Below, in pieces: positions 347-10,702 of a stretch of DNA of 64,000 nt. The stretch spans positions 1 to 64,000 of the forward strand of contig NZ_FOTS01000009.1 in NCBI RefSeq assembly GCF_900114615.1, read 5' to 3'. The notes beneath the pieces were generated by a model. That model ran no database searches, was not told the DNA's origin, and saw only the letters and a list, made by a program, of their open reading frames with translations. A program made the position numbers and the translations under genes. The stretch is from Pelosinus propionicus DSM 13327. GTDB taxonomy: Bacteria; Bacillota; Negativicutes; DSM-13327. Every line of letters starts with the position of its first letter. Position 1 is the stretch's first letter.

Positions 347-1480
347 TCAATTATTCATAACTATATCTACTCTTTTTCTACCTTGGTGGAGTTTTTCTTC
401 GATTGTAGGATTAGTTAAAAAAGGATAAAACAACATTTCAAGAATACACTTCACAAATTTATGATATTGAGATGCATTCTTAATACCATAAGGAATTCTC
501 TTGAGATTATCAATTAAATCATCTATTAATCGTCCTATATCTATATTTCCTGTATATTCCATGAAGTCTTGGTTAGTTAGTGACTTAACTTTATTCGATG
601 TTGATTCTCTAAACTTCTCAAATAATTCAGGATGCTTTTGTGTATATTGTCTTAGATAGTCTTTCTTATTAACAAACTCATCTTTTTTTATTTTATCATT
701 AATATATTCAAATACGTCTTTCTTAGGTAATCTGGCTATCTCTTTACCGCTTTTGTATTTTTTAAATTTTACCAATGAAGACATTCTTCTTAAATGCTCA
801 TCTCTTTCTCGATTTATTACAAAATCCCAGTCATATTTTCGTGCATTATATTCAGAAATATATGTTACTATCGATTTTGGAACTAATAATAATTCTCTTC
901 CTTCATAGAATAACAAATCTTCAATTGAACTATCCCAATCATCAATAGAAGCATTCCAATAAGGTAATGTTTCTTCATGCTTCATAGGAATATCCCAAAT
1001 ATCACATTGCGATTTTGTATAATCAATTAGATGTCTTCTAATGATGTTTGTTACCATATCTGACAATTTATCTTTATCTACGTTATCTACAAATACAATA
1101 ATATCTTCAATGTTTTTTACAGTTTCATTTTCAATAGCCCTACTCTTAATAATTTCTTCAACAATATCACTTGCATTATATTTCCCTATGCCTTTTCCAT
1201 TTTTTGTTCCCCGTTTACTAACCCCAAAACAATTTTCTTTCGATTCTGACATAAATTCAAACAAGTCTTTGGCTTTATCATATTCCTTATCAATTATATG
1301 GCCTCTTACCCTTGAAAAAAAGCTTTTAATAGTTCGATCCACCTCAATTGACCATGGATCATTCCTTTTTGAAATTAAATAAGGGTCAAGATATAACGGA
1401 TAATCAACATCAGTATCAATATCAACAAAATCTAATTGAATCTGACTAACTTCTAATTTAAATATTTCGCTGATTCTCAT
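347..1480 (-). pseudogene. Restriction-endonuclease-like protein, C-terminus removed by IS insertion
   Basis: 377 residues from ATG 1480, chosen because AAAGGAG lies 9 bases upstream; an in-frame ATG at 1510 lacks such a site. The last residues are EEKLHQGRKRVDIVMNN, which reads like the first acidic motif of a PD-(D/E)XK nuclease (GRKRxDI). The E-x-K half that should follow is absent. The stop codon TGA is the first triplet of the inserted IS end, so the protein is cut inside its presumed catalytic domain. The N-terminal 340 residues match no family I can name. It sits with helicase and nucleotide-hydrolase genes, which suggests a defence role. The remainder should lie beyond the IS, off the window. 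Confidence 0.65.
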
Positions 1481-1735
1481 AAATTCAGACTCCTTTGTAA
1501 GGTTTCTCATCTATAGCCATTTTAGATATTTCTCTATTGGAACTAACTTGAAAATGAACTTATATATTATTCCCTCATAATGTTAATTCTTTTTTCTTTT
1601 AGCGTCTTCCTTTGATCTAAATTCTTACATAAGCTGGTGAACTAAGGCAACACTAATAAAAGAAGGTAGCCACATATATTAAAGTCAAAGAACCTTCGTA
1701 GTTATGCACACAATATTCTTACTTATTTATCTTAC

Positions 1736-3592
1736 TTATTTACCAAACCTATTACATAAATAATCTTGAAGATTTTTATCTCGACAAAAAACATAGCAAC
1801 CTTTCATGCCTCTAGACATTAAAACCTTATAAACATTTTTAATTAAATAGGTTAACTCTTCTGGTTTTTCTTTTAGGCCAGTCTTCCCCATTACATCATA
1901 ATAGTCATCATAACTGGAATAAATTTTCATCGTATCCGGATCATGTCTTAAATCATTTCCGATAATGACTCCAACGTAGTCAAATTCTAATCCTTGTGAT
2001 GTATGTACACAACCAATCTGATTCATTTTTTCATCATCTATCGCCCATGGAGACTGAGTAGATCTGCTATTCCACGGCATACTAAAATCAAATTCTTGCA
2101 TTTTTACATCATCGATTTCTGCATTAGGATTTCCATTTTTTTCTGATGTCCATGGCCATGCATAACCAGCTAATATTCTTGACTTGAATCCTTCCTCATT
2201 CTTCTTATTTATTTTTTCTAGGAGAATATTAGGATCATCTACTATCATAAAATCAAAAGTATCCCTATCCCATCCATCGAAATTTGCTGTCTCTTTTATC
2301 TGAAGATTGTGATCGACCCAATTTAAAAAGCCTTCTGCTCCGGCGCAACGGAATTGTGCTTCTAATTTTACTTCTACCACTTCAGATTTATACTTAGCTG
2401 CAGTAGATTTAATTTCCGCAACAGTTCCTACATCTTCAGGGCGTATTCTTTGATTATCATCTATAAAAAATACATTTATCCTTGAAGCTTTGACCACATC
2501 TTCTACCTGATTTTCTCCTTTATACATAAACGCCCCCTTTTTCTTTAGTCGGTGAGCCTCATCTACGACTAACACATCGAATACATCATTCTTCGCATCA
2601 TAAAAAGAAGCAGAGCCAGAAAATAGAGCTCCTAATCTTTTTTTGCTGCGTTTATTGTTGTTAGAAAGCATGTCAATCATTACCCCTCTAAAAGAAGCAT
2701 TAGGAGCAACAAATTTTAAATTCTTTTTTCTTTTTAGAAGTTCAACAAACGCATTCATAGCAACTACTGATTTTCCAGTGCCTGGTCCCCCATCTACTAT
2801 TATGGTGGTTTTAGCAGTTGCACTTTTTACACACGCAATAATGCTTTCATACGCCACCTTCTGTTCATCCAGCAAAGTATATACTTTATTACCATCAAAG
2901 ATTTCCGAAACATATTCCACGAATTTTTTAGATGGCCTAATCTTTCCATTTTCTATCTGATAGAGAATATCTAAACCATTGCCTTTCCCGACATATTTAT
3001 TAATAAACTCTTCCAGTTTTTTAGTATCTTTAGCAAAGAAAATTGGTGTTTCTTCAATTATAGTTTTGTATTGCTCAAATAACAAAGGCTCGGAATTCTT
3101 TCTCTTATAATTGTGGAGATAAGCACAAGAGTAAGGTTTTAGATTATCTTTGTAAATGGCTTCATTCATATCTGATAAATATTTCACATACGAATAAGCC
3201 TGATAAGATGGATGTGCCACTTCCCTTACCTTCTTCCCGATTGAAGTTGTGACAATATCCTCTTTATCCGTAGCATTAGCCACACTCCATTGCTTTAACT
3301 CGACAATAATAAAGTTAGCATTACCATCTTGGTCATATCCAGAAATGATAAAATCTATCCTTTTGTTAGTTGACGGTATATTATATTCTATCAATACTCC
3401 ACAGTCATCTGGCACTTTTGAATTCCTTAATATGCTTTCCATATACTTTAATGATTTTGCCCATGAATCCCTCTCAGAATCGCCAACTTTGCGCCCATAA
3501 TTTGACTGAAATTTTAATTCAATATCGTCTGCAATTCGATTTTCATCTACTGCCGTACGAAACCCAATAGCATCATTCTGGTAAATTATCAT
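1736..3592 (-). CDS. PD-(D/E)XK nuclease-like plus DUF2075 (Schlafen-type) helicase
   Basis: 618 residues. The N-terminal part has a nuclease-like pattern: D80 in NKRIDF and the E98-K100 pair in VELKQW, as in PD-(D/E)XK folds. The P-loop GGPGTGKS is at 268-275, the DEAH box (VVDEAHRL) at 344-347, and a late motif near HTSQGLEFDYVGV is like motif V of superfamily 1 helicases and DUF2075 proteins. Its ATG overlaps the stop of the MazG-like gene by four bases (ATGA), so the two are translationally coupled. Nuclease-helicase fusions next to nucleotide hydrolases are common in phage-defence islands. A defence role is inferred; the domains are visible. Confidence 0.8.
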   Translation of the reverse strand: MIIYQNDAIGFRTAVDENRIADDIELKFQSNYGRKVGDSERDSWAKSLKYMESILRNSKVPDDCGVLIEYNIPSTNKRIDFIISGYDQDGNANFIIVELKQWSVANATDKEDIVTTSIGKKVREVAHPSYQAYSYVKYLSDMNEAIYKDNLKPYSCAYLHNYKRKNSEPLLFEQYKTIIEETPIFFAKDTKKLEEFINKYVGKGNGLDILYQIENGKIRPSKKFVEYVSEIFDGNKVYTLLDEQKVAYESIIACVKSATAKTTIIVDGGPGTGKSVVAMNAFVELLKRKKNLKFVAPNASFRGVMIDMLSNNNKRSKKRLGALFSGSASFYDAKNDVFDVLVVDEAHRLKKKGAFMYKGENQVEDVVKASRINVFFIDDNQRIRPEDVGTVAEIKSTAAKYKSEVVEVKLEAQFRCAGAEGFLNWVDHNLQIKETANFDGWDRDTFDFMIVDDPNILLEKINKKNEEGFKSRILAGYAWPWTSEKNGNPNAEIDDVKMQEFDFSMPWNSRSTQSPWAIDDEKMNQIGCVHTSQGLEFDYVGVIIGNDLRHDPDTMKIYSSYDDYYDVMGKTGLKEKPEELTYLIKNVYKVLMSRGMKGCYVFCRDKNLQDYLCNRFGK

Positions 3593-3936
3593 GATAATAT
3601 TTCCAATCTTGTGTATTTATTTTTATTTCCATACGAATTATTTACTTTATATTTCTCACCATTTTTTGAGAGCTTATTCAATATCATTGTATCCATATCT
3701 AATCCTAGTACATTTGCCATATAAATGCAGTAAATAACTACATCAGCCAATTCTTCTGATATGTTCTCAAGCTTTTCTGCTGATACCTCTGTATCACTTC
3801 CTGTCCATTGGAAATTCTCCAACAACTCAGCAGCCTCCAAATTAATGGATATTGCTAAATCTTTAGGATTATGAAACTGCTTCCAATTACGTTCATCCCT
3901 AAACTTTAAGATTTTTTCTATCAGTTCTTTATTCAC
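3589..3936 (-). CDS. MazG-like nucleotide pyrophosphohydrolase
   Basis: 115 residues from GTG 3936, with GAGGAGAAG upstream. The pattern EAAELLENFQW followed by EELADVVIYCIYMANVLGLD is the metal-binding E-x-x-E ... E-x-x-D signature of all-alpha NTP pyrophosphatases (MazG / RS21-C6 type), which hydrolyse (d)NTPs to NMP and pyrophosphate. It is the first gene of a two-gene unit with the DUF2075 helicase downstream (four-base overlap). Single-domain MazG proteins serve in nucleotide-pool cleaning. In this setting it may tune the nucleotide pool during phage attack, which is inference. Confidence 0.85.
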   Translation of the reverse strand: MNKELIEKILKFRDERNWKQFHNPKDLAISINLEAAELLENFQWTGSDTEVSAEKLENISEELADVVIYCIYMANVLGLDMDTMILNKLSKNGEKYKVNNSYGNKNKYTRLEILS

Positions 3937-4305
3937 TACTTCATCTTCTCCTCTCTAAAGATGTATTAAAAGTACGTATTTTGATTTTCCGCCCCTTTGC
4001 GAGTACAATTAGTCACTAATAATCTTTAAAAATGAACAAGAACTACCCATTATCAACTGTGACTTAGCTCCATGACCTATTGGAATGTATCTTACTCATT
4101 TTCAAAAAACTTCTTATTTACATTTCACCTTCAATCATTGATTTTCCTTGTTTGACAAAAAAATACAACGTCTGTTTTTAGAACGTTGCAATAAACTTCT
4201 AACTATATTTTATATCATACATCCTATTGAAGAAGGTTTCTGTAACTTCCATTTAGCTTTTGCCTAAAGAAAATTCAAGCCCTTTCTAGATTCTATAATA
4301 GGTAG
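3937..4305. other. Intergenic stretch, no clear gene
   Basis: AT-rich and stop-rich in all frames. It should contain the promoter of the mazG-like/helicase unit. A short hairpin (CAACGT ... ACGTTG near 4168-4189) is visible but has no good T-run. Nothing else can be supported. Confidence 0.5.
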
Positions 4306-4527
4306 TTGTACACAACCATCAATAGAAGTAATGCGCAAACATTTTATCAATGTCGCGATGAAAGGATGAACTTAGGTGTCATTCAGCGACTGATGATACT
4401 ATTGATCATCCAAAGAATAGTGCTGAAAGAAGATAAAGACCAAATGTTTTTGCAATTCTTTATTGACAGTCTACCCAACTGTCTTCAAGGACAAGTTAGA
4501 GAGTTAATAAATAGTTACAAATCTTGA
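4306..4527 (+). CDS. Possible 73-residue hypothetical protein
   Basis: The frame opens at TTG 4306 with only a poor ribosome binding site, and an internal ATG at 4366 has none either. The product is Leu/Ile-rich in its middle (VIQRLMILLIIQRIVLKEDK) and ends FIDSLPNCLQGQVRELINSY, which looks like a folded small protein rather than random sequence. It is convergent with the 405-residue gene, 16 bases from its stop. No family is recognised. It could be a degenerate gene fragment. Confidence 0.35.
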   Translation: MYTTINRSNAQTFYQCRDERMNLGVIQRLMILLIIQRIVLKEDKDQMFLQFFIDSLPNCLQGQVRELINSYKS

Positions 4528-4543
4528 AAACTAAAATGCTTTC

Positions 4544-5761
4544 CTATACTGGTTTTTCTTTATTTTTTTGTTTTCTTTTAATTAGATCACTTATTAATTC
4601 GTGATAAATTCTTTCAAGAAAAACTCTTTCGTCAAAGTCAGATGTGATTGATGTAGTTTTATCAAACGCTTGAATTAAATTTAATGTATTATTAATAATA
4701 TTTTTTTCATATAGTTCTTGCATATTTTGTCTTGTTTCAGCTTTAAAATTTTGCTGATTATTTGTTATTTTTCTAAACAAATTGAAAATAGTATCATCTG
4801 AAATTGTTCTAATTTCTTTTATTTCTTTTATTAATGTTAATATTGAATTCTGGGCATTTTTCAGAGTATTAATATCTCCAACTTTTTCTTCTAATTTAGC
4901 AATACCAGTATTATGATACACATTAAAAATCGAATCACGAAGTACAGGTATCGCTGTAAATGACTTTGTACTATCTTCTTCATCTACTAACTTATATCTT
5001 ATTTCTAGAGAAAATGTACTCTGTTTTATTTCACTATTAGAAATAACTATACCAAAGTATACTTTACCTACCCCTGGAATACTAACTGCATTTTCTTGTT
5101 CAAGTATAATCTTAATCGCTGAATCACTAATTCTTGCATGCTCAATAGAAAATACTATTTCATTTTCTATTGCAAACTTATTTAAATATAATAAGGATAT
5201 AAATAATGCAATATTATTATTGTAATTTCGATATGTTTTTGACGTCAGTCCACGTAGAAAGACCTCATCATTTTTTACAATAAATCTGTATTGTTTTTCT
5301 ACTGAACCAAGCTTTACTAGCAATTCTTGTACATTTTCTTTTATTAAGTCTTCAAAGTTATTCTTTATGCAAAAATTAGCATATTTGCCCATATGAAAAT
5401 GTACTTCAAAGAACTCATAAGTAAAATCATAAATACCTGTAGATGAACTTTTATCATCTTTAAAATTAAGTATTATTTCTCCTTTATCCGTCAAACCAAT
5501 ATAATCAATATTTGAGAGCGCTTCTATTTTATCGAACTTCGCTTCTATATCTATTTGCTTAAATTCAGTTAGTAAAACTTTTGACCCTTTAATTTTTAGT
5601 TCTTTAGTTGGATGTCCCAAATTAGATATTGGAAACATCTCTTTTACCTTAATATCAATGTCTCTATCTGGACGTAACAATTTACCCAATCTTTCAAGAT
5701 TAGCACTTGATTTTCCTAATTGTTCTGCATTTAGCTCTAAGTAGTATAAATGATTTTTCAT
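4544..5761 (-). CDS. Unrecognised 405-residue protein in defence-like neighbourhood
   Basis: The start is ATG 5761 because TTGGAGGGGG lies 7 bases upstream; an earlier in-frame ATG at 5791 has no such site. The protein is soluble, rich in Lys, Ile and Asn, without signal peptide or membrane segments. Its middle (NDEVFLRGLTSKTYRNYNNN, then SIPGVGKVYFGIVISNSEIK) faintly recalls phage/plasmid DUF932-type proteins, which share a G-x-v-x-x-N-S-E pattern, but this is weak. The C-terminal 120 residues are helical and charged, ending RKQKNKEKPV. It stands alone between the MazG/helicase pair and the Nudix gene. Function unknown. Confidence 0.7.
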   Translation of the reverse strand: MKNHLYYLELNAEQLGKSSANLERLGKLLRPDRDIDIKVKEMFPISNLGHPTKELKIKGSKVLLTEFKQIDIEAKFDKIEALSNIDYIGLTDKGEIILNFKDDKSSSTGIYDFTYEFFEVHFHMGKYANFCIKNNFEDLIKENVQELLVKLGSVEKQYRFIVKNDEVFLRGLTSKTYRNYNNNIALFISLLYLNKFAIENEIVFSIEHARISDSAIKIILEQENAVSIPGVGKVYFGIVISNSEIKQSTFSLEIRYKLVDEEDSTKSFTAIPVLRDSIFNVYHNTGIAKLEEKVGDINTLKNAQNSILTLIKEIKEIRTISDDTIFNLFRKITNNQQNFKAETRQNMQELYEKNIINNTLNLIQAFDKTTSITSDFDERVFLERIYHELISDLIKRKQKNKEKPV

Positions 5762-6103
5762 TACTCTGCCCCCTCCAATCTTTACTGCCATAAATAAATA
5801 TATGCTAATATTCCGAATTTTCCTTCTTAAATCGACACTAATATATATACATCTTCAAAATATTAGGAACTTCCTTTAAATGCTTTGATATCTTCTTAAG
5901 TTTAATAACTCTGATCAAACTATTTCTACTTTAAAAGAAAATCAAAGGGATGTAAGAGTTGTTCTATCTCTGCCTAACAGTCCCCTAAAAAGGCTGTATC
6001 CGTCAATGCCCATCATGCACATAGCCTTGAAAGCCGCTAAATCTATATTTCTCCAGCATTTTGACTATTCCTTCCTAGCATAGTTTTGACATATACCAAC
6101 ATG
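5762..6103. other. Intergenic, degenerate sequence
   Basis: Mostly AT-rich with no complete gene. About 5990-6082 (plus strand) is open and reads LYPSMPIMHIALKAAKSIF... to a TAG, like the tail of a coding sequence, but no start or family was found. Together with the asnB-like fragment just downstream it suggests decayed genes. Confidence 0.4.
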
Positions 6104-6180: not shown

Positions 6181-6288
6181 GAAATATGGGGGACATTTTT
6201 TTACTTTAATGTTATCACACAGTTGAAATTGTCATTATAAATTGAATTCTATGCCATAATATGTTACTCTACCCTAGGGGTGATTTAC

Positions 6289-6687
6289 ATGAAAAAGTTA
6301 ATTAAAGTAGTTGGAGCAATTATCGAAAATGACAATAATGAAATTCTTTGTGCTTTGCGTTCTCCGAAAATGAACATACCTAACCATTGGGAATTTCCTG
6401 GTGGGAAAGTAGAGGAAAACGAAAATCTTTCGGAAGCTATCGTTAGAGAAATTCAAGAGGAACTTAAGTGCGCTATTCAATTTAAAGAGCTTTTTAATGA
6501 TAATACTCATGAATATGATACATTCATCGTAAATTTAATAACTTTGAAATGTAAATTGATTTCTGGTTCTCCAGTAACAACAGAGCATTCAAAGCTTCTC
6601 TGGCTAAAAAGAGAAAATCTCCTATCATTACAATGGGCTCCTGCTGATATTCCTGCTGTAGAACAACTCGTAAACGAAAAAGTATAG
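6289..6687 (+). CDS. Nudix (deoxy)nucleoside triphosphate pyrophosphohydrolase (MutT-like)
   Basis: 132 residues from ATG 6289, preceded by AGGGGTGA at 5-base spacing; an upstream in-frame GTG at 6280 is less likely. The Nudix box starts at GGKVEENENLSEAIV and ends REIQEEL, the full G-x5-E-x7-R-E-U-x-E-E pattern. NHWEFPGGK is the form seen in 8-oxo-dGTP/CTP pyrophosphohydrolases. It converges tail to tail on the DUF3427 helicase, with a shared terminator between. Nudix genes beside DUF3427 helicases recur in many genomes to my knowledge, so the pair may act together; this is inference. Confidence 0.88.
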   Translation: MKKLIKVVGAIIENDNNEILCALRSPKMNIPNHWEFPGGKVEENENLSEAIVREIQEELKCAIQFKELFNDNTHEYDTFIVNLITLKCKLISGSPVTTEHSKLLWLKRENLLSLQWAPADIPAVEQLVNEKV

Positions 6688-6719
6688 TTTTCTCGATTTG
6701 AGATTACTATACTTTTTTT
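6677..6719. terminator. Bidirectional terminator between Nudix and helicase genes
   Basis: AAAAAGTATAG (6677-6687) pairs with CTATACTTTTT (6707-6717), followed by further T on the plus strand and T on the minus strand from the A-run. The left arm overlaps the Nudix stop codon. Confidence 0.8.
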
Positions 6720-6742
6720 ATTGAATCTATTATTTCGACTAA

Positions 6743-9715
6743 CTAGACATTGGCTCTTGTTAAATATTCATAGATAGAATCTTCAACGGGCTGGTTCATA
6801 AGAAACCGCATTTTAACAACTGAAACATATTTACCTTTTCCATCTGGCATAGTTGTTTGCTCAATACTTTCAACAATTGGTGTTATCTCACCCATATAAT
6901 AAAAATCGCTACTTTCCCCATTACTTTTTTTAATAAATAACGGAATTCTTAGTCCCTGTTTATAGTTACGAATAGTACGAACTTCAGGACTATTTAATGT
7001 TCTCTTCGATTTTGTCATCCATTCAAATTCATAATTATTGATAAAACCATCATTGTATTTAGTGGTATCCGATATATTTTCATCTTTATCATACGTAACA
7101 AATATCGGACAGTTACTCTTATTACTACTAACAATATAGCCTCCAACATTTTGTGCAACAGGATTCTGATCCCAGTTTAAAATTCGAAAAACATCTTTTC
7201 TTGAATACTTTCGGTACAATATAAAGCCATTGATATATTTGTCTTGATTAAAAAACTTATCATATACGATTTCAGAGTAATATAACATATCCCTAAGAAA
7301 GCTCTTAAACGTTTCCTTTTTCAATGAATTTTTGAAATCCTGTTCACAGAATATCTCTTCCTTGTTATCAGAAATAATGTTGAGATCATGTGCTTCTCTT
7401 ACACTCATTAGTTTCTTATTTTTCTTTTCAGTCACAAACTCAAAGTTGATGTTTTTAATACAAGATTCTAGCGTCTCATTCGAAATTTCAATTCCATACG
7501 TAGCTAAAGCAACACTTTTAACTTTTTCTTTTTTAATTGATTCTGTTTGTATTAGTTCTTTAAGAATAATGACTTCTTCGATTCGTTTCGTGTTTGCAAT
7601 TTCATTAGAAAACAGTTCCAGTAGCTTCACTTCTTCTGATGATAATCGATTTTTCAAGGTAACTTCTTGGCCTGCGACAAAATTAAAATAGGATCTTGAA
7701 TACTCCGCATAAAGTTGTGGATCTCTAGAACCATGCTCTAGAAAATCTACCATCATCGGAACCTTCCCGATCTTAAATTTCAACAGCTCATAATCTTTCA
7801 CAAGATCTTGTTTAAGCTGCATATTGGCGCTATCAATCGCTTCAAAAATTCGATCTTGAGCAATCTTATCAAAATTAACAGTAGAAGCTCCTGGTATTAC
7901 ACTACTTCCACTAACCATTAATTTACGCAGCGTATCTTTATTGTAGGAAGTATTACCGTACAAGGCGACGGGAACTAAGTAGCTCTTGCTGTAATTGCCA
8001 ATAAAATCAATGATCGTTACATATTCTTTACTATCAGCTTTTCGTAAACCTCTGCCTAATTGTTGCACAAATATTATCGCTGATTGAGTAGGTCTCAGCA
8101 TGATGATCTGATTCACTTTCGGAATATCAATACCTTCGTTAAATATATCTACCGTAAAAATATAATCTAATTTATCCTCTGGACGATTACTCTCTAAGCC
8201 ATTAATTGCAGCAATTCTTTCCTCCTCACTACTGCTACCACTCAAGGAGACCGATTTATACCCTCTACTATTGAAGACCTTTGAGAGCTCATCACTTTCT
8301 TGCAGAGAGCTACAAAAAACCAGCCCTCTTACACAGCCATTATCACATCCGTAAAATTCTGCTTTTTCAATAATGTTATTAACACGTTGGGTTGCTGATA
8401 ATAAATTAAAAGCTGCATTTTCGTCTAGTACTTTTCCGTCTACGGTAATATCAGTTACACCAAAATAATGAAACATACAAAGCATTTGTTCTTCCAAAGC
8501 TCTATGTAGACGTATTTCGTATGCAATATTATAATCAAACTCCTTGAAGATATCAAAACCATCCATTCTTTCTGGTGTAGCTGTCATCCCTAGCAAAAAC
8601 CTAGGCTGAAAATGGTTTAATATTTTCTGATACGTAGGGGCACCAGCGCGATGTGTTTCATCTATAACGATATAATCAAAATGATGCTTATCAAACTGGT
8701 TCAAGTTGTTTTCGATAGAAATGGTCTGTATTGTTGAAAATAAAAAATCGGCTTCAATCTCTTTTTTGTTTCCAGAGTACATCCCCATGCTCTTGTCTAT
8801 ACCAAAAACTTTTATATAACTTTCCATTGCTTTATTAGCAATATTTGCTCTATGAACAATAAATAAAAACTTTTTAGGATTTACTTCTTTTACATCAAAT
8901 GCCGATAAATAGGTTTTTCCCGTTCCCGTTGCCGAAATTAATAAGGCTTTATTTTTACTTTCAGATCTTAATTTTTTCAAACTCTTTAGTGCTTCAACTT
9001 GCATGGCATTCGGCTTAAGAGTATTTTTTTGCAGTACAGTAAGCTTATTTTGATTTTTCTTGAAAAAAGCCCTCTGCGCTTTATATAGTTTTTCATATTG
9101 ATCAATAAATTCCGAATTTACAATTTCAGCGTCTTCAAATTCATTATTAAACTCTTTGATCGCATCGATTATGAGCTTTCCTTTATTGGTTGATGATATT
9201 CTTAAATTCCACTCTTTATTTGTACATAGAGCACTCGCAGTTAGATTGCTACTTCCAATAATTAAATCATAACTATTTCCTTTTTTAAAAAGATACCCTT
9301 TTGCATGGAAATTCCCTGTAGTTACCATTCTTAATTCAATATTTCTAAACTTTAATAAGGTTCTTAATGCCTCTGGTTCTGTGAAATTTTGATATTGAGA
9401 AACCAATATTTTACCATTAATCTTTTTTTGCTCTAGTTCCTTTAACGAATTAATTAGTACTGTAACGCCACTCTTTGTCAAAAATGCAACTGAGAACCAA
9501 AATTCATCACAACTTTTTAAATCTTTATCTACGGTTGTTAATACTTTCTTGCCATTTATTTTGTCATTTAACACTAACTTCGGCAAATACTCTTGTTTAG
9601 AAGGGTGAAAATTATCTATAAAGCCTGTTCTTAGACTTTGAGATAATTCAGTGTATAACATATCCCTATTTTCATCATTTATAACAAATGCTGTAGCGGC
9701 TTCGTATTGTTTCAT
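6743..9715 (-). CDS. PLD-like / superfamily 2 helicase / DUF3427 protein
   Basis: 990 residues from ATG 9715 (AAGGAATGG upstream; an in-frame ATG at 9754 has no site). The N-terminal phospholipase D-like nuclease module has FHAKGYLF (H137-x-K139) and IIGSSNLT, one HKD unit, so it probably works as a dimer. The SF2 helicase core follows: GTGKT at 264-268, DETH at 352-355, GMTATPERMDG, and QQLGRGLRK as motif VI. The last 250 residues fit DUF3427. It resembles RE-helicase fusions of defence islands. Convergent with a Nudix gene. The nuclease-helicase reading is well supported; the defence role is inferred from family and context. Confidence 0.88.
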   Translation of the reverse strand: MKQYEAATAFVINDENRDMLYTELSQSLRTGFIDNFHPSKQEYLPKLVLNDKINGKKVLTTVDKDLKSCDEFWFSVAFLTKSGVTVLINSLKELEQKKINGKILVSQYQNFTEPEALRTLLKFRNIELRMVTTGNFHAKGYLFKKGNSYDLIIGSSNLTASALCTNKEWNLRISSTNKGKLIIDAIKEFNNEFEDAEIVNSEFIDQYEKLYKAQRAFFKKNQNKLTVLQKNTLKPNAMQVEALKSLKKLRSESKNKALLISATGTGKTYLSAFDVKEVNPKKFLFIVHRANIANKAMESYIKVFGIDKSMGMYSGNKKEIEADFLFSTIQTISIENNLNQFDKHHFDYIVIDETHRAGAPTYQKILNHFQPRFLLGMTATPERMDGFDIFKEFDYNIAYEIRLHRALEEQMLCMFHYFGVTDITVDGKVLDENAAFNLLSATQRVNNIIEKAEFYGCDNGCVRGLVFCSSLQESDELSKVFNSRGYKSVSLSGSSSEEERIAAINGLESNRPEDKLDYIFTVDIFNEGIDIPKVNQIIMLRPTQSAIIFVQQLGRGLRKADSKEYVTIIDFIGNYSKSYLVPVALYGNTSYNKDTLRKLMVSGSSVIPGASTVNFDKIAQDRIFEAIDSANMQLKQDLVKDYELLKFKIGKVPMMVDFLEHGSRDPQLYAEYSRSYFNFVAGQEVTLKNRLSSEEVKLLELFSNEIANTKRIEEVIILKELIQTESIKKEKVKSVALATYGIEISNETLESCIKNINFEFVTEKKNKKLMSVREAHDLNIISDNKEEIFCEQDFKNSLKKETFKSFLRDMLYYSEIVYDKFFNQDKYINGFILYRKYSRKDVFRILNWDQNPVAQNVGGYIVSSNKSNCPIFVTYDKDENISDTTKYNDGFINNYEFEWMTKSKRTLNSPEVRTIRNYKQGLRIPLFIKKSNGESSDFYYMGEITPIVESIEQTTMPDGKGKYVSVVKMRFLMNQPVEDSIYEYLTRANV

Positions 9716-9800
9716 ATATAACCATTCCTTATGCAGATTTTTTACCAGTAGCATTTAAAGATTCGTAAGTGTTATTACATCATCTATATTTATTTAATGT

Positions 9801-9854
9801 AAGAAAAGATAACCATAATCTACCTGTTACTAGATTATGGTTATCTTCTCTTAG
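9801..9854 (-). terminator. Terminator of the methyltransferase gene
   Basis: AGATAACCATAATCTA and TAGATTATGGTTATCT form a 16-bp stem with an 8-base loop, followed on the minus strand by TTTCTTAC. It lies just after the stop of the gene ending at 9872. Confidence 0.8.
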
Positions 9855-9871
9855 TTAAATGACAAATCCTG

Positions 9872-10702
9872 CTATTTTTCTAGAAAAACTGCAATAGTCG
9901 GACTATCTTTCCTATAAGGTTTGCCCGTAACGTCACTGAATACTTCCAATTTCTTAAACCCTGCTCCATGTACTTCTTTTGTCAGGGTTTCTGGAGTAAA
10001 GCAGCAATTCCATATACAATATTCTTTGATTTTGTTATCCGTAATTACAGAGGTTTGCTCTAGTGTCACATTGTCGGAATACTTGTACTGTGCATTCAAT
10101 GAAAGGTATTTTTCTGCACTCCAAAATCCTCCATTTTCATGAACTTTCCAAGTATTTAATTCTTCAAACGCATCGTACGTCACCATGGAAAATACATCCA
10201 ATAGGAGCTTTCCGCCGCTTTTTAGACTATGGTATAGTTTTTGTAGTATTAACGCCCTGTTTTCATTTGACAGAGCACCATAATCACAGTAAATAAACGT
10301 TGCTAAATCAAACACATTGTTATAATCCATTTTCAGATAATCCTGATAAATATAAGTTATGTCTAAGTCTTGTTGGTTAGCGGAGCTGTTTGCATACTCT
10401 ATTGACCGCTTAGAGAAATCAAGCCCTGTTACTCTATAACCAGCTTTGCAAAACCGTTCAGTATATAGCCCTGGACCACAGCCGATGTCTAATAATTGAG
10501 GATATTCGGAAGGTGGTGCGGTTTCTTGAATCCACTTTACAGACTGCTCAATAAAGCGCAATTTGCGGCTTGCTCCTTCGTAATCTGGATTAAGGTGGGC
10601 TGTGAGCATATGTTTTGAAATATGTTCATCATTCCAGAAATTAACCTCGCTTTGCTTATAGAGCGATGGACGCTCCAAATACATGAAAATATTGTTATAC
10701 AT
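9872..10702 (-). CDS. Class I SAM-dependent methyltransferase
   Basis: 276 residues; AAAGGGGTG sits 8 bases before ATG 10702. Motif I is LLDIGCGPGLYTERF (SAM-binding G-x-G-x-G loop), followed by VTGLDFSKRSIEYA for the acidic residue binding the ribose. The C-terminal part (ITDNKIKEYCIWNCCFTPET) continues like methyltransferase-25 family proteins. The substrate cannot be told. It is a single-gene unit with its own terminator, facing away from the island. Its fold is clear; the small-molecule target is unknown. Confidence 0.85.
   Translation of the reverse strand: MYNNIFMYLERPSLYKQSEVNFWNDEHISKHMLTAHLNPDYEGASRKLRFIEQSVKWIQETAPPSEYPQLLDIGCGPGLYTERFCKAGYRVTGLDFSKRSIEYANSSANQQDLDITYIYQDYLKMDYNNVFDLATFIYCDYGALSNENRALILQKLYHSLKSGGKLLLDVFSMVTYDAFEELNTWKVHENGGFWSAEKYLSLNAQYKYSDNVTLEQTSVITDNKIKEYCIWNCCFTPETLTKEVHGAGFKKLEVFSDVTGKPYRKDSPTIAVFLEK

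Follow-up and report, generated by a model that had tools for sequence, protein, structure and literature searches.

The window, which is the whole analysed stretch of 64,000 nucleotides (positions 1 to 64,000 of the forward strand of contig NZ_FOTS01000009.1 from Pelosinus propionicus DSM 13327, assembly GCF_900114615.1), contains a gene for a Nudix hydrolase and a gene for a SauUSI-type type IV restriction enzyme. The two genes are convergent and lie tail to tail, and 55 bp separate their stop codons. A sequence-only reading of this DNA had described a Nudix hydrolase convergent with a PLD-helicase-DUF3427 protein, and both open reading frames (ORFs) and their domains were confirmed with Pfam and PADLOC. 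The positions of these and other features are listed in the table. The Nudix gene starts at the ATG at 6289, while an in-frame GTG at 6280 would make a protein of 135 amino acids (aa). The ORF of the large protein spans 6743-9754 on the minus strand, and the ATG at 9715, where the sequence-only reading placed its end, is an alternative start.

Features of the window discussed in the text
Feature	Position	Strand	Details
Nudix gene, NudG/MutT2-like (PADLOC PDC-S07)	6289..6687	+	132 aa; complete Nudix box; Asp at the NudG D118 position
SauUSI-type type IV restriction enzyme gene	6743..9715	-	990 aa; 1003 aa from ATG 9754
PLD-type nuclease domain (PLDc_2)	9134..9508	-	HxK and GSxN residues invariant in 16 aligned relatives
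ResIII/DEAD helicase domain	8567..9019	-	Walker A and DExH residues invariant
Helicase C-terminal domain (Helicase_C)	8042..8329	-	Pfam
DUF3427, full length, proposed modified-DNA recognition domain	6758..7612	-	Pfam
12-bp perfect inverted repeat	6677..6717 (arms 6677-6688 and 6706-6717)		Read directly from the sequence
MazG-like protein, resembles DCTPP1/RS21-C6; second pair	3589..3936	-	In 10 of 96 SauUSI loci
Schlafen-group-3 helicase, MazG partner	1736..3592	-	Pfam

The Nudix and the restriction enzyme

The large protein includes PLDc_2, ResIII, Helicase_C, and DUF3427 (269 bits) in a single chain. It can be aligned in full length to 7CLG (765 bits, residues 20-986), which is SauUSI, registered as "Putative helicase", and it matches the PADLOC model mREase_IV with 789 bits. 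The residues H137, K139, G154, S155, and N157, as well as those of Walker A and DExH, are invariant in the 16 aligned rows. Judged from its sequence, the protein is a SauUSI-type, modified-cytosine-dependent type IV restriction enzyme. Published articles are cited here by PMC number, from excerpts of their text. In the presence of ATP or dATP, SauUSI cuts DNA containing 5-methylcytosine (m5C) or 5-hydroxymethylcytosine (hm5C); the domain proposed to recognize this DNA is DUF3427 (PMC3874153).

The Nudix protein matches Pfam NUDIX (54 bits) and, with a score of 173 bits (e-value 4.4e-52, residues 3-133), the PADLOC defence candidate PDC-S07 (model PDLC04899). Its Nudix box is complete, with G39, E45, R53, E54, E57, and E58 invariant. 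The best relatives in the Protein Data Bank are 5X1X from Staphylococcus aureus, 3GWY from Bacteroides fragilis (second match, 9.4e-17), and NudG from Escherichia coli (third). The predicted model (mean predicted local distance difference test score, pLDDT, 94.7) retrieved 3gwy_B first and the MutT2:5mdCTP complex third with Foldseek. The distinction between NudG and MutT by fold was attempted and failed, as the Z-scores of 3r03, MutT2, MutT, NudG, and 3gwy were all 18.9-21.0.

The position of NudG D118, which corresponds to MutT N119, has a role in base recognition. Asp occupies this column in 200 of the 201 aligned rows, and Asn is seen in MutT alone; the window Nudix has Asp and thus lacks the residue by which a MutT-like 8-oxo-dGTPase is identified. 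With a purpose-built hidden Markov model of the Nudix, E. coli NudG scored 129 bits and E. coli MutT 102 bits, so the cut-off of 70 bits fails to exclude MutT, while the Asp/Asn column excludes it. The protein in 3GWY (Q5LBB1_BACFN) has a kcat/Km of 4.8e6 per M per s for 5-Me-dCTP and 4.4e6 per M per s for 5-MeOH-dCTP, with far lower activity on canonical NTPs (PMC5158307). The substrate of the window Nudix probably belongs to the same class, C5-modified (5-substituted) dCTP.

The inverted repeat listed in the table ends in T on one strand and A on the other, and it is possibly a shared terminator of both convergent genes. It escaped the hairpin scan, which allowed loops up to 8. Separately, a 17-pair hairpin at 9806-9847 lies upstream of the SauUSI-type gene, just past a methyltransferase gene at 9872-10702 on the minus strand.

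Conserved adjacency of Nudix and SauUSI-type genes

A complete SauUSI-type gene beside a complete NudG-like Nudix gene is kept across bacteria and archaea, while the orientation changes. The pairing was analysed in two samples. The first includes 398 genomes of the same phylum, 47 of which carry DUF3427 with 49 matches in total; 17 of these, scoring 190 bits or more, are full-length, and the other 32, with no more than 111 bits, form a second, weaker group. Judged by coordinates, a Nudix gene is present within 2 kb of 15 of the 17 full-length loci. In 14 of them the Nudix gene is the direct neighbour (convergent in 7, tandem downstream in 3, and tandem upstream in 4), and in one more it is in tandem at 1.8 kb; the exceptions are G174 without a Nudix and G248 with a Nudix 14 kb away. 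In all 15 genomes, the nearby Nudix is the sole PDC-S07 match at an e-value of 1e-25 or below. The sequence-only reading had made its case dependent on Nudix neighbours of DUF3427 genes exceeding the background, and they do so by a wide margin, because about 0.03 adjacent pairs are expected by chance for the 17 loci. In the weaker group, 7 of 32 loci adjoin a Nudix and another one has a Nudix within 3 kb. Four DUF3427 loci (G093, G095, G117, and G151) were judged by coordinates alone; a partial Nudix match in G150 was left out, as was L179, which yielded no Nudix ORF.

The second sample contains 80 named SauUSI-type loci from Bacteroidota, Bacillota, Vibrio, and archaea including methanogens. 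A Nudix gene is found within 600 bp in 69 of the 80 loci and at 1047 bp in one (L279), while 10 have none in the stretch examined. Sequence of 600 bp or more on both sides was available for 69 loci, and 63 of these have a Nudix within 600 bp. The orientation in the 69 positive loci of the whole sample is tandem upstream in 44, tandem downstream in 18, and convergent in 7. Convergence as a meaningful feature was therefore rejected, since all three arrangements occur. The genomes of the ten Nudix-less loci, L279, and G174 were searched as a whole; five of these 12 have a PDC-S07 copy of more than 90 bits elsewhere, and one has the L279 copy itself, as recognized by its coordinates.

The pairing is also seen on plasmids, for which five of 21 plasmid records were examined. 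SauUSI in the S. aureus plasmid record NZ_CP077890 is immediately preceded by a gene for a Nudix identical to 5X1X, and Nudix genes lie directly upstream of SauUSI on plasmids of Hymenobacter, Latilactobacillus, and Lactiplantibacillus. No Nudix was found within the annotated stretch of the Paracoccus plasmid locus. Two further arrangements were observed. L203 (3613-10614), a linear S. aureus plasmid, has two inverted, partly broken SauUSI-Nudix copies and is possibly an assembly artefact. L128 (18572-19375, minus strand) encodes a fusion of a NudG-like Nudix with a 2-thiouracil desulfurase domain, and a SauUSI-type gene lies 14 kb away.

It is very unlikely that the protein is an ordinary house-cleaning Nudix, acting on 8-oxo-dGTP or generally, which stands near restriction genes through shared variable islands. 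PDC-S07 is present in 118 of the 398 genomes, mostly away from restriction genes, and the window Nudix has an orphan as its closest relative (L065, 79% identity), both of which would suit such a protein. The excess of adjacent pairs over chance speaks against it, as do the Asp at the place of MutT Asn and the fusions described below. Hitchhiking of generic Nudix genes in defence islands was rejected, because other Nudix matches are near SauUSI in only 2 of the 80 named loci and McrBC, which also cuts m5C-containing DNA, has a PDC-S07 Nudix neighbour in 0 of 14 cases among 80 Nudix-bearing genomes. The McrBC result counts equally against a universal Nudix rule for m5C enzymes.

A second nuclease family, MazG, and the history of the pairing

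Independently of SauUSI, Nudix proteins of the PDC-S07 kind are also linked to another family of modified-cytosine nucleases, unrelated to the first, either as neighbours or as fusions. The neighbours of the PDC-S07 genes from the window and from 119 of the 120 fetched loci were clustered. The first cluster consists of SauUSI-like proteins from 23 loci including the window. Another cluster, from eight loci, consists of HNH proteins whose gene is always the next one downstream of the Nudix gene on the same strand, often overlapping it. The HNH protein matches EcoKMcrA (3.6e-20), and weak SRA matches were seen in two of the four examined. Among the 398 genomes, 20 McrA-type HNH matches were found, of which 7 are beside a PDC-S07 Nudix, 5 are fused to it, and 8 are neither (12 of 20 joined). 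Families were also tallied with Pfam and PADLOC for 136 of 690 neighbour ORFs, namely those right beside the Nudix that measure 150 aa or more and lie less than 400 bp away, at loci without SauUSI; among the 25 families listed, the McrA-type HNH is the sole recurring restriction family.

Seven Nudix ORFs (L156, L158, L163, L171, L172, L175, and L180, the last one short) have an N-terminal extension of the SRA-HNH type. ScoMcrA is the top match of the L158 fusion model in Foldseek. The second structure comparison, VIA, listed Nudix chains only, and the assignment of the SRA-HNH part thus comes from Foldseek and sequence. In L171 (7029-8384, plus strand) and L172 (3991-5409, minus strand), the HNH is undetected by Pfam, and perhaps the nuclease decayed while the Nudix was kept. 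In L091, a DUF2357 and PDDEXK_7 protein, possibly a modification-dependent nuclease, is encoded at 3273-5642 (minus strand) directly upstream of a PDC-S07 Nudix.

The fusions, which belong to one clade, and the frequent overlap of HNH and Nudix genes are what would be expected if the Nudix were a physical partner of the nuclease, such as a subunit or a sensor that reads modified nucleotides released by cleavage. This is nonetheless improbable. SauUSI and Nudix genes are found in both tandem orders and convergent, which indicates that equal expression is not maintained, no SauUSI-Nudix fusion was seen, and SauUSI is active alone (PMC3874153).

The phylogenetic tree of the Nudix proteins includes 201 rows with few columns, and 88 of its 195 inner branches are left open, so the counts based on starred branches are safer. 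SauUSI adjacency changes 16 times on the tree, with at least 9 changes forced by starred branches; for HNH adjacency, there are 8 changes, at least 4 of them forced. The changes indicate that the pairing was repeatedly gained or lost. As a single case, the genome of the orphan L065 (7974-8399, minus strand; genome G359) has no DUF3427 match, and the contig of this Nudix also carries two C5-methyltransferase genes, at a distance of about 17-20 kb.

The sequence-only reading had noted a MazG and nuclease-helicase pair close by; it is real, at 1736-3936, with the MazG gene 2.35 kb from the Nudix. The best match of the MazG protein is the pyrophosphatase 4QGP (5.3e-21), and it is similar to human DCTPP1 and to RS21-C6 (6SQW/2A3Q) with an e-value of 2.5e-15. 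The fold of DCTPP1/RS21-C6 is all-alpha and unrelated to Nudix. One article groups DCTPP1, RS21-C6, and Orf135 (NudG) as enzymes that hydrolyse 5-methyl-dCTP (PMC10742078). Tabulation of MazG neighbours revealed similar proteins in 10 of 96 SauUSI loci, including the window, versus 0 of 125 other loci (p 1.8e-4). In L206, a Lactiplantibacillus plasmid, and L214, a Bacteroidota contig, the genes of the Nudix, SauUSI, the MazG, and the helicase follow one another without interruption on the same strand. The suggestion that the two pairs share a theme of nucleotide-pool control thus stands in part, through the over-representation of MazG beside SauUSI and these runs. The identity of the SauUSI-type enzyme, which the sequence-only reading missed, suggests that the theme is the removal of C5-modified dCTP, not control of the nucleotide pool in general. 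The MazG-helicase pair recurs beside SauUSI elsewhere, and the N-terminal part of the window helicase resembles, by eye, a PD-(D/E)XK nuclease. Also in this part of the window, a 387-aa protein encoded at 347-1510 (minus strand) matches the PADLOC candidate PDC-M36A (102 bits) and no Pfam family, and a 415-aa protein encoded between both pairs at 4544-5791 (minus strand) has no Pfam or PADLOC match.

Possible function and comparison with known systems

A functional partnership between the Nudix and the nuclease is very probable. For the mechanism as a whole, self-protection by a module of restriction and anti-modification is proposed tentatively, at somewhat less than even confidence. The Nudix would clear C5-modified dCTP from the nucleotide pool, and modified cytosine that is salvaged, or released by the nuclease and re-phosphorylated, would be kept out of the DNA of the host. 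The chromosome would then be free of modified cytosine, and the nuclease would cut only invading modified DNA. No methyltransferase guards the host of a type IV system, and the pool-cleaning enzyme would instead keep the host DNA unmodified.

The same substrate is predicted by another possibility, in which the Nudix destroys 5-methyl- or 5-hydroxymethyl-dCTP made by a phage before replication while the nuclease cuts the modified DNA that is still made, and the data here fit both. Phage DNA synthesis would be starved or plain cytosine would be incorporated, so that the phage trait is hit at the level of both nucleotide and DNA. The protein in 3GWY is equally active on 5-MeOH-dCTP and 5-Me-dCTP (PMC5158307), phage kinases for 5-methyl-dCMP and 5-hydroxymethyl-dCMP were reported (PMC10742078), and PADLOC lists the Nudix alone as a defence candidate, all of which agree with an offensive role. 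On the other hand, the literature search found no phage assay, and a phage that modifies its cytosine once the DNA is replicated would escape, although the pairing extends very widely, from Bacteroidota and Bacillota to Vibrio and methanogens. An offensive role, the main rival of self-protection, is rather unlikely. Self-protection is favoured for two reasons: the pairing is spread over a wide range of hosts and nucleases, and a mobile nuclease directed at m5C requires host DNA free of m5C.

Several observations weigh against self-protection. The preference for 5-methyl-dCTP over dCTP is known for relatives of the window Nudix only, and MutT and BdRppH resemble the window Nudix too closely in fold for structure alone to separate them (Z from 18.9 to 21.0). 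Six of the 12 genomes searched as a whole have no PDC-S07 copy above 90 bits, which indicates that a SauUSI-type nuclease can exist without the Nudix. These, together with McrBC without the partner, count against self-protection and the offensive role alike. C5-methyltransferase genes are rarer in genomes with SauUSI (2 of 17 versus 107 of 381 others), but the difference is insignificant (p 0.17). In IMG/VR contigs, the Nudix is directly downstream in 12 of 80 SRA-HNH loci and missing in 68, a count possibly biased by the inclusion of fusion proteins in the query. SauUSI is a single polypeptide sufficient for activity in E. coli (PMC3874153). This last objection is qualified by the nudG gene that E. 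coli itself carries.

The nuclease and this kind of Nudix were already known, and so was the co-localization of PDC-S07 with type IV restriction-modification (RM) genes, found in Streptococcus suis in 23 of 23 cases (PMC12813430). For PDC-S07, the excerpts of that article name neither a function of the protein nor a partner family, a fusion, or a mechanism. The literature search, which did not cover the original SauUSI paper, retrieved among the papers listed no description of SauUSI-Nudix or SRA-HNH-Nudix pairing, of the fusions, or of a mechanism. If most SauUSI-type enzymes are accompanied by an enzyme that clears modified dCTP, this would explain how they spare their host and move between hosts, would give a function to PDC-S07 and to the S. 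aureus protein 5X1X, and would connect nucleotide salvage to restriction in a testable way.

The window enzyme is homologous in full length to SauUSI of S. aureus (7CLG), with the PLD, helicase, and DUF3427 parts. The Nudix gene is just upstream in the S. aureus record, while it is convergent in the window. SauUSI is treated as a lone polypeptide in the review PMC3874153, while the window enzyme has a Nudix neighbour. NudG (Orf135), Q5LBB1, and MutT2, which hydrolyse 5-methyl-dCTP, are the same kind of Nudix, close in sequence and fold, and NudG shares the Asp at D118; however, E. coli nudG sits among metabolic genes, while the window gene is tied to a restriction enzyme. The SRA-HNH enzymes ScoMcrA and EcoKMcrA, whose relatives adjoin or are fused to this kind of Nudix, have a nuclease fold unrelated to SauUSI, and none is encoded in the window. 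The window MazG is alike in sequence to the DCTPP1/RS21-C6 dCTP pyrophosphatases and, unlike them, is paired with a Schlafen-type helicase.

The usual description of a type IV restriction enzyme is that of a lone gene to which no protective partner belongs. It is conceivable, though doubtful, that SauUSI and the McrA-type SRA-HNH nucleases form restriction-antimodification systems mirroring restriction-modification, with the MazG and Schlafen-type helicase pair as a third independent instance; in that case, the helicase would also act on cytosine-modified DNA. Classical restriction-modification protects self by modifying DNA, whereas restriction-antimodification, if true, would do so by destroying modified dCTP.

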